The position numbers and the translations under genes are program-made. Of a stretch of DNA of 61,630 bases, positions 60,329 to 61,630 are shown one piece after another. The notes beneath the pieces are model-generated. The model was given only the letters and a program-made list of their open reading frames with translations, did not search any database and was not told the origin of the DNA. Positions within the stretch are counted from its first letter, which is position 1; every line of letters begins with the position of its first letter. This DNA comes from Blastococcus tunisiensis (GTDB lineage: Bacteria > Actinomycetota > Actinomycetes > Mycobacteriales > Geodermatophilaceae), in assembly GCF_900112815.1 (NCBI RefSeq), contig NZ_FOND01000025.1:1-61630 (forward strand). Reading direction: 5' to 3'.

Positions 60329-61125
60329 CAGGGGGAAGCCTCCTCGCCGGCGGCGGCCGGGGTGTCGCCGCGGTCGCTGCGCGGACGGGTCTTGCGGATC
60401 TCGATCTTCTTGCCCTCGGGGCCGACGGGCACGACCCGGTCGACGAACACCCCCGGCAGGTGGACGTGCTCCGGCGGGATCTCGCCGGGCTCGACCAGCT
60501 CCTCGACCTCGGCGATCGTGATCCGACCGGCCATGCCGGCCGGACCGTTGAAGTTTCCTGCGGTCTCGCGGAACACCAGGTTCCCGTGCCGGTCGCCGAC
60601 CGCGGCGCGGACCAGCGCGTAGTCGGCGGTCAGCGACGTCTCCAGGACGAACTGCTGGCCGTCGAAGACGCGGACCTCCTTCGGCTCGCTGGTCCGCACG
60701 ACGTTCCCGTCGGCGTCGTAGCGGATCGGGATGCCGCCCTCGGCCACCATCGTGCCGACGCCGGTCGGCGTGTAGAAGGCGGGGATGCCGGTGCCTCCGG
60801 CGCGCAGCCGTTCCGCGAGCGTCCCCTGCGGGGTCAGCTCGACCTCGAGCTCGCCCGACAGGTAGAGCCGGGCCAGTTCCTTGTTGCCGCCCACGAAGGA
60901 GCTGATCGTCTTGGCGATCCGGCCCGCGTAGAGCAGGACCCCCAGCGCCTGGTCGTCCACCCCGCAGTTGTTGGAGATGGTCGTCAGGCCGCGCGTCCCC
61001 TGCCCGAGGAGAGCGTCGATGAGGGCGATCGGGACGCCGCAGAGCCCGAACCCGCCGACGGCGAGCGTGGCGCCGTCGGGGATGTCGGCGACGGCGTCCC
61101 GGGGGGAGTCGATGACCTTGTCCAC
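60328..61125 (-). CDS. scoA: 3-oxoacid CoA-transferase, subunit A
   Basis: 265 residues. [20 protein letters not shown] near 21-40 holds the CoA-binding GGFG loop; [34 protein letters not shown] and [13 protein letters not shown] follow. The sequence is nearer to actinobacterial ScoA than to proteobacterial PcaI in my reading. About 20 extra polar residues end the protein. The GTG at 61125 follows GGGGAGGG. The two subunits form a two-gene operon with no beta-ketothiolase (pcaF) beside it. Confidence 0.9.
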
Positions 61126-61274
61126 GGCTCAGCCCTCCCCGGCGCGGGGAACGGCCGGCGGGACGACGTCCCGCATCCGGTCGGTACGCGTTCGGTCCAC
61201 CAGCGTGCTCCCATCGGTCAGGACTGCGGTCGGCGCCAGTATCCCCGGTGTGCCGTCCCGTCCCGACCGGCGGC

Positions 61275-61290
61275 CCTCCCGGCCGGGAGG
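61275..61290. promoter_or_regulatory. Perfect 16-bp palindrome upstream of scoA
   Basis: CCTCCCGG-CCGGGAGG, 150 bp upstream of the scoA start. It may be an operator for scoAB or may belong to the target region of the neighbouring IS element. The gap 61126-61308 holds no gene. Confidence 0.35.
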
Positions 61291-61308
61291 TAGCCGCTCA
61301 GACGGTAT

Positions 61309-61420
61309 GACCCGACCGATCCCGTGGGGAGCGGTTGCGGGTCGGGGCCTTCCACACCAGAAACGTGGGTTACCGGGGAGGAGCCCCTGCCCGGCCTATC
61401 CGACATGTGTGGGAGGCCCC
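61309..61420 (+). ncRNA. Candidate IS110 bridge RNA
   Basis: The 110 bp before the transposase fold into two strong elements. The first is GACCCG (61309-61314) with CGGGTC (61338-61343), with inner stems CCG/CGG and TCCC/GGGA. The second is a 14-bp pairing of GGGGCCTTCCACAC (61344-61357) with GTGTGGGAGGCCCC (61407-61420, one G-T pair), enclosing about 50 bases with a GGGG-AGGAG-CCCC hairpin. A 5' stem-loop followed by looped stems, between the left end and the transposase start, is the known layout of IS110-group bridge RNAs. The loops that would pair with target and donor are not assigned. Confidence 0.6.
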
Positions 61421-61421
61421 G

Positions 61422-61630
61422 ATGGGTGTGGAGCGTACGAGCGTCGGGCTGGACGTGCACGCACGATCGGTGTCCGCGGCGGCGATCGACGGCGTCACGG
61501 GCGAGTTGATCAAGAAGCGGCTGGTACCCACGACCGACACCGTGATCGAGTGGGTGCGTGGCCTGCCGGGTCCGGCGGCGGTCACCTACGAGGCCGGGCC
61601 GACCGGGTTCGGGCTGGCCCGGGCACTGGC
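61422..61630 (+). CDS. IS110-family transposase, N-terminal part (cut by window edge)
   Basis: The ATG at 61422 opens a frame running off the right edge after 69 codons. It begins with the DEDD RuvC-like domain: SVGLDVHARSVSAAAIDGVT (first catalytic Asp near residue 10) and VTYEAGPTGFGLARAL (catalytic Glu near 58). The C-terminal serine transposase domain is outside the window. A GGGAGG lies within the structured leader 8-13 bases upstream, so the start may be partly masked by RNA structure. Completeness cannot be judged. Confidence 0.9.
   Translation, partial: MGVERTSVGLDVHARSVSAAAIDGVTGELIKKRLVPTTDTVIEWVRGLPGPAAVTYEAGPTGFGLARAL

Follow-up and report, generated by a model that had tools for sequence, protein, structure and literature searches.

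Does the structured leader of an IS110-type transposase gene in Blastococcus tunisiensis encode the RNA that selects the element's target and donor, or does it act on the gene that it precedes? A first-pass annotation had proposed that this leader is a bridge RNA programming both choices, and the left non-coding end is the usual RNA site of IS110-group elements in the available text of PMC11208160. The window analysed here is a contig of 61,630 nucleotides (C9, one of 43 contigs), and since it stops at position 61630, inside the transposase gene, this copy of the element is cut by the assembly. The features on which the argument draws are as follows.

61298..61299, + strand: TC (chromosomal), the final dinucleotide of the left target, present before AGACGG in six of six left ends
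61300..61309, + strand: left terminus AGACGGTATG, identical in six copies, made up of AG, the right-donor half and a candidate -10 element
61309..61343, + strand: stem-loop 1, predicted from the fold with mixed covariation, weakly supported and missing from one branch of relatives
61343..61421, + strand: stem-loop 2, with a base stem, an internal loop (61358-61364 / 61400-61406) and an apical stem, from a 61-row alignment
61411..61416, + strand: Shine-Dalgarno (SD)-like GGGAGG in stem-loop 2 (3' arm), separated from the ATG by 5 nt, read from the sequence
61422..61630, + strand: first 69 codons of the IS110-family transposase gene, from profile matches, with the 3' part lost at the contig end
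About L174:62-250, outside the window: guide RNA of the window's copy, whose placement on contig C7 is probable

The element and its two ends

The 69-residue fragment encoded in the window (P0001) matched profile NF033542 with an E-value of 3.1e-5, yet on its own it lies under the family cut-off. The DEDD_Tnp_IS110 and Transposase_20 domains by which IS110 membership is judged were found in the complete homologue of the nearest relative, Blastococcus mobilis (L092, 362 aa), which scored 201.8 bits against NF033542 (cut-off 140) and carries PF01548 (47 bits) and PF02371 (57.5 bits), both above cut-off. By these profile matches, the window gene is an IS110-type transposase gene. The same genome holds four other IS110-family transposase genes (L001-L004 on contigs C26, C35, C27 and C22), with open reading frames of 395-589 aa.

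There are six left ends of the element in the genome, identical from AGACGG (window 61300) onward, each with a different sequence farther left of the shared TC. The assembly contains no complete copy, and neither a protein search nor a PF02371 search of the genome found the right half of the element. When right-end DNA from B. mobilis was used as the query, six right ends were recovered, all at contig ends and all continuing with AGCCCA. One further copy (L008, contig C28, around 94455-94900) enters a run of 10 Ns, probably a scaffolding gap, and is followed there by sequence other than the right end of the element.

Contig C7 probably begins with the right end of the window's own copy (L174:1-352), since the two flanks adjoin in relatives: in 9 of the 12 compared, what follows the counterpart of the window's left flank resembles the sequence past the C7 right end, with scores of 200-244 versus at most 64 for reversed controls. 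The assembly could therefore be joined in the order C9, element, C7. Upon alignment of the joined C9 and C7 flanks to L189 and L190, we found TCAG once in each, in alignments of this single insertion that are gapped near the junction, where the left flank is poorly conserved. As in other IS110 elements, there is a short shared core and no long target duplication at this one insertion, with AG at both junctions. The AG of AGACGGTATG, common to target and donor, is the likely core, and the adjoining GACGG is the right-donor half.

We collected at least 80 related loci from genome contigs, together with three plasmid loci (L078, L080 and L081). A Pseudomonas sp. BYT-5 plasmid, pBYT5-4 (L077, NZ_CP097493.1), has nine places that resemble the left end of this actinobacterial element. 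In the relatives, about 180 nt are conserved downstream of the gene, followed by a terminator-like inverted repeat, recognised by eye, and then by TTGACA, which stops 16-17 nt before the terminal ATATC; the chromosome past ATATC usually starts with AG. In a circular form of the element, the abutted ends would create a promoter, with TTGACA from the right end and GACGGT from the left end, the latter being a candidate -10 element. In all 52 distinct end pairs, the left-end hexamer is GNNNNT (with A at position 2 in 50 of them) and lies 17-18 nt from TTGACA across the predicted circle junction, a pattern that is partly built in by construction, as loci were picked with at most two changes in AGACGGTATG plus TTGAC[AG]. 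A consensus scan of both strands of 61130-61630, of a kind that is weak in G+C-rich DNA, found no promoter-like or terminator-like site.

A conserved hairpin at the transposase start codon

The minimum free energy (MFE) fold of 61309-61421 has a predicted energy of -73.2 kcal/mol (shuffles: -50.2 ± 3.65 kcal/mol; z -6.3), and none of 200 shuffled sequences folded as well. It places stem-loop 1 at 61309-61343, followed by a 14-bp long-range stem that pairs 61344-61357 with 61407-61420, so the two stacked stems described in the first-pass annotation were recovered, as was a right arm ending one base before the ATG at 61422. The second hairpin persists when folded in a 241-nt context. An Rfam search of 61000-61630 returned three matches with E-values up to 10, all far under their gathering scores.

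The annotation had called for compensatory changes in both stems; comparison with relatives upheld this for stem-loop 2 and gave a mixed result for stem-loop 1. We aligned stem-loop 2 of the window with that of 60 distinct relatives, leaving aside eight truncated loci and identical rows. Its consensus has 20 pairs, 13 of which show compensatory changes, a count that none of 500 shuffles reached, and 98.4% of cells are paired (shuffles, 91.7%; structures slid along the alignment, 37.6-48.4%). In one locus (L168), double changes occur at two adjacent pairs of the base stem. The comparison also adds a pair, 61343-61421, which is C-G in 49 and U-A in 12 of the 61 rows; with it, the conserved stem extends right up to the start codon. 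For stem-loop 1 (45 rows, the window and 44 relatives, with L149 and L171 removed by hand), 90.0% of cells are paired compared to 86.7% in shuffles, and both this pairing and the covariation score were reached by only 3 of 500 shuffles; two-sided changes are limited to 2 of 6 pairs, however, as many as in 153 of 500 shuffles, and 9 of the 58 loci examined lack room for this stem-loop.

As the 3' arm of stem-loop 2 contains the SD-like sequence, we computed the probability that this sequence is unpaired on predicted mRNAs. It averaged 0.057 in native leaders and 0.398 when the upstream part was shuffled, and was lower in the native form in 59 of 59 leaders, on predicted mRNA starts and with the start codon misread by its anchor in four of the 59. 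In the window's element, GGAGG had a value of 0.00 in the native leader and 0.43 with the upstream part shuffled, whereas pairing of the start codon did not differ between native and upstream-shuffled leaders (p 0.15). Because the shuffling removes the 5' arm, these values measure the effect of the hairpin and not selection on it. We conclude from the comparison among relatives that the SD sequence lies within a conserved RNA hairpin placed immediately before the start codon, as in leaders that sequester a ribosome-binding site. The earlier suggestion that the 3' arm covers the ribosome site and that folding could limit transposase synthesis thus gains support from comparison, predicted energetics and the example of ISPpu9 (see below), and the likeliest role of the leader hairpin is to limit transposase translation.

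Stem-loop 2 may do more than this, since its consensus leaves four columns (30 and 35-37) without a partner, each conserved at 90% or above, which goes beyond the needs of simply burying an SD sequence; column 35 is paired in the MFE fold of the window. These bases could serve as a receptor at which the transposase, with or without its guide RNA, binds the internal loop and shuts or opens translation as feedback. We regard such a receptor as possible but less likely than not, and as compatible with a translation-limiting hairpin. Speaking against it, the 47 covarying Watson-Crick column pairs returned by a scan of leader against right end come from a statistic that ignores kinship and runs of neighbours, and changes on one side of a complementary stretch seen by eye are not matched on the other.

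Two other roles for the leader fared worse. The inverted repeat might work as DNA, as a binding site or a cruciform for end recognition, given that it lies near the element's end and close to the donor half-site. This is improbable, as the stems use G-U alternatives (pair 32-72 is UG in 38 rows and UA in 19; pair 45-58 is AU in 45 and GU in 12), and the position of the stem is fixed relative to the start codon while the predicted leader length varies by about 25-30 nt between branches. Still less probable is a role as the precursor of a small RNA with effects elsewhere, for which the available portion of PMC12594629 reports a precedent in Salmonella, the 5' end of IS200 tnpA. The leader is compact, stable and at the 5' end of the mRNA, but the scan described above found no promoter-like or terminator-like site, with the weakness noted for G+C-rich DNA.

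The right end: target guides and candidate donor guides

In contrast to the leader, the right end of the element carries sequences that follow the target. All five of the B. tunisiensis right ends that reach far enough contain the RNA UUGGGCUGUGAGC, whose TGGGCTG is complementary to CAGCCCA. More generally, the bases just before UGAGC are complementary to those that follow the usual AG in the chromosome beyond ATATC, and constitute a right-target guide. We scored this pairing in 68 of 84 loci (seven lacked a right end, eight had a contig end too near and one had no anchor), with the guide anchored by a pattern around TGAGC that allows one change. Locus ends, like the guide, were located by motif patterns, and the agreement between AG and CU is therefore partly built in; target positions 3-6 fall outside every search pattern. 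Across 39 distinct guides, these four positions pair at a mean of 3.62 of 4, compared to 1.36 after permutation, and 0 of 5000 permutations reached the observed mean. Position by position, the paired fractions were 0.82, 0.97, 1.00 and 0.82 (permuted: 0.26-0.48), and positions 7-9 showed no clear departure from chance in the same 39 guides. When counted by locus, with the window's element entered once, all four positions pair in 46 of 68, three in 19 and fewer in three. L105, L120 and L149 pair poorly with their right targets, and the right end of L143 departs from the usual ATATC.

The right flank of L149 is AGATGTGGGAGGCCCCAGTG, a piece of another copy's leader hairpin, and the left flanks of L123 and L125 are of the same kind; such flanks suggest that a related element was the insertion target, or else that the assembly is faulty there.

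An unbiased mutual-information scan (39 right-end and 36 left-end representatives) identified four consecutive right-end columns that run antiparallel to the right target, with z of 10.2-18.9 and 79-100% pairing. It also identified two right-end columns whose bases are the same as those at the final two positions of the left flank (94%; z 15.0 and 17.3). By direct count, the left target and the RNA have the same dinucleotide, which in the RNA precedes AGA, in 54 of 60 loci and, with each distinct right end entered once, in 45 of 49 (one further locus lacks the motif), and the final base of the right guide pairs with the final base of the left flank in 52 of 54.

The right-end consensus fold has 34 pairs, of which 15 show double changes, as a raw count over 43 rows; the 43 rows are those kept from 53 distinct sequences after 10, some of them diverged, were removed by hand. 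This fold sets the two target guides face to face, with a stem on either side, and draws them as paired with one another at three bases, which match opposite strands of the same core. The right-end RNA of the window's element, folded alone, was not better than shuffles (z 0.19). We conclude from covariation that both target guides are located in the first stem-loop of the right-end RNA, the right-target guide being 5' of the left-target guide.

In L092, L067 and L155/L156, the gene and the guide RNA are separated by additional sequence that includes an inverted repeat. In L092, the repeat that follows the coding sequence is GGTCAAGG...CCTTGACC, and sequence resembling the insert of L067 also occurs in the left flanks of L078 and L113. 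A pairing between GGUUACC of the leader and GGUAACC of the right end, seen by eye, was set aside because the middle base on the right-end side varies while the leader base is constant.

The second part of the right-end RNA contains candidates for the donor guides. CCGUC is complementary to the GACGG of the left end, and position 5 of the right donor covaries with the RNA (97% Watson-Crick, z 10.2), which makes CCGUC a candidate right-donor guide by covariation at one position. Changes in donor and RNA are matched in L120, L152 and L163, and right-donor variants are incompletely matched by the RNA in L081, L104, L147, L148, L155 and L171. A second motif, (A/C)AUAUCAG, resembles the right terminus plus AG (seven of eight bases in the window's own element) and is a candidate left-donor guide. 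Both left-donor sequences are nearly invariant, and the match is consequently one of identity only. Among the eight best columns listed in each left-donor scan, the highest z was 15.1 for leader and right-end columns alike, with pairing of 0-56% and 3-74%, respectively; we read these high values as relatedness. The donor guides would be followed by the terminator-like repeat and then by a -35 box near the very end of the element, both recognised by eye.

That the leader itself is the bridge RNA, its internal loops pairing with target and donor, is now highly improbable. The fold of the leader is strong and conserved, and one leader column tracks position 6 of the right donor (z 9.9, 94% Watson-Crick, MI 0.25), but this column stands alone, with no neighbours listed. 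The first-pass annotation had named a match between leader loops and insertion flanks as its test, and the leader failed it: the scan of the leader against the right target gave no diagonal of the kind that the guides of an IS110/IS621-type left-end bridge RNA would produce, and the best column had z 5.6 and 34% Watson-Crick pairing. Near-identical leader loops occur with different right targets (R. koreensis, L155/156, AGGTAGC; P. parietis, L158-160, AGRTCAG; Mycobacterium sp., L165-167, L169 and L170, AAAGCG), and the leader forms one hairpin with an internal loop and not two binding loops. The target guides and the donor guide candidates are located in the right end instead. As for the left target, the best leader column (z 6.7, 89% Watson-Crick) has index 2 and falls within the terminus itself.

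Relation to known elements and the likely division of roles

A leader that buries its ribosome-binding site has a counterpart in this family. The available text of PMC8450116 describes ISPpu9 of Pseudomonas putida (IS110/IS492 family), in which the 5' untranslated region (UTR) likely buries the ribosome-binding site and weakening mutations raise a reporter 26-fold. By its features, the element described here resembles ISPpu9 in this burial, in the AG at the insertion point and in a sense RNA of about 180 nt downstream. In contrast, ISPpu9 has a 5' UTR of 244 nt overlapped by an antisense RNA, Asr9, and inserts in REP sequences, according to the same text, whereas the leader here spans 82-116 nt from its predicted start and the simple promoter scan of both strands found none. 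In a full-text literature search on IS110-family leaders, the ISPpu9 paper stood alone among the matches listed, and a search of PMC11208160 for the term "ribosome" gave no hit.

The right-end RNA resembles the seekRNA of IS1111-type elements in the parts of PMC11187229 and PMC11208160 available, in that it lies downstream of the gene, with the top-strand match 5' of the bottom-strand match, and places donor-matching bases in a multiloop, as seekRNA and bridge RNA do. The order of guides is that of IS1111 members and opposite to that of ISEc21 (PMC11187229, in part), a text that also reports downstream non-coding regions for some IS110-group elements. Unlike IS1111 elements, which have subterminal inverted repeats of 7-17 bp (PMC11208160, in part), the ends here share about five of six subterminal bases (GGTATG / CATATC, by eye). 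IS621 belongs to the same family of RNA-guided recombinases, and in it, as here, left guides pair with the bottom strand and right guides with the top strand (PMC11208158, in part). Its RNA, however, comes from the left end, and the left guide precedes the right one (PMC11208160 and PMC11208158, in part); here the RNA lies in the right end, and the order of the guides is the reverse. For ISKrh6, an IS110 element of Kocuria, the available portion of PMC12500396 cites the upstream region as the seekRNA source. The pairing of parts in the present element is unusual.

Together, these comparisons make it probable, with good confidence, that the leader is a translation-limiting 5' UTR of the transposase mRNA and that target choice belongs to another RNA, some 180 nt long and located downstream of the gene. 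A transcript from the circle junction would pass through the leader, then the gene and then the guide RNA, and the hairpin would keep translation low both on such transcripts and on those that read through from outside. A more elaborate scheme, with a division of labour between two conserved RNAs, is conceivable but rather unlikely: the downstream RNA would pick target and donor, and the conserved internal-loop bases of the leader would detect the complex of transposase and guide RNA, thereby coupling translation of the transposase to the amount of guide available.

For this lineage, these analyses correct the location of the guide RNA, as a search upstream of the gene only would yield the wrong RNA. 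Natural variation supplies target guides shown by covariation, and candidate donor guides, across many genomes, and the leader makes translational control open to experiment in a mobile element that is guided by RNA.
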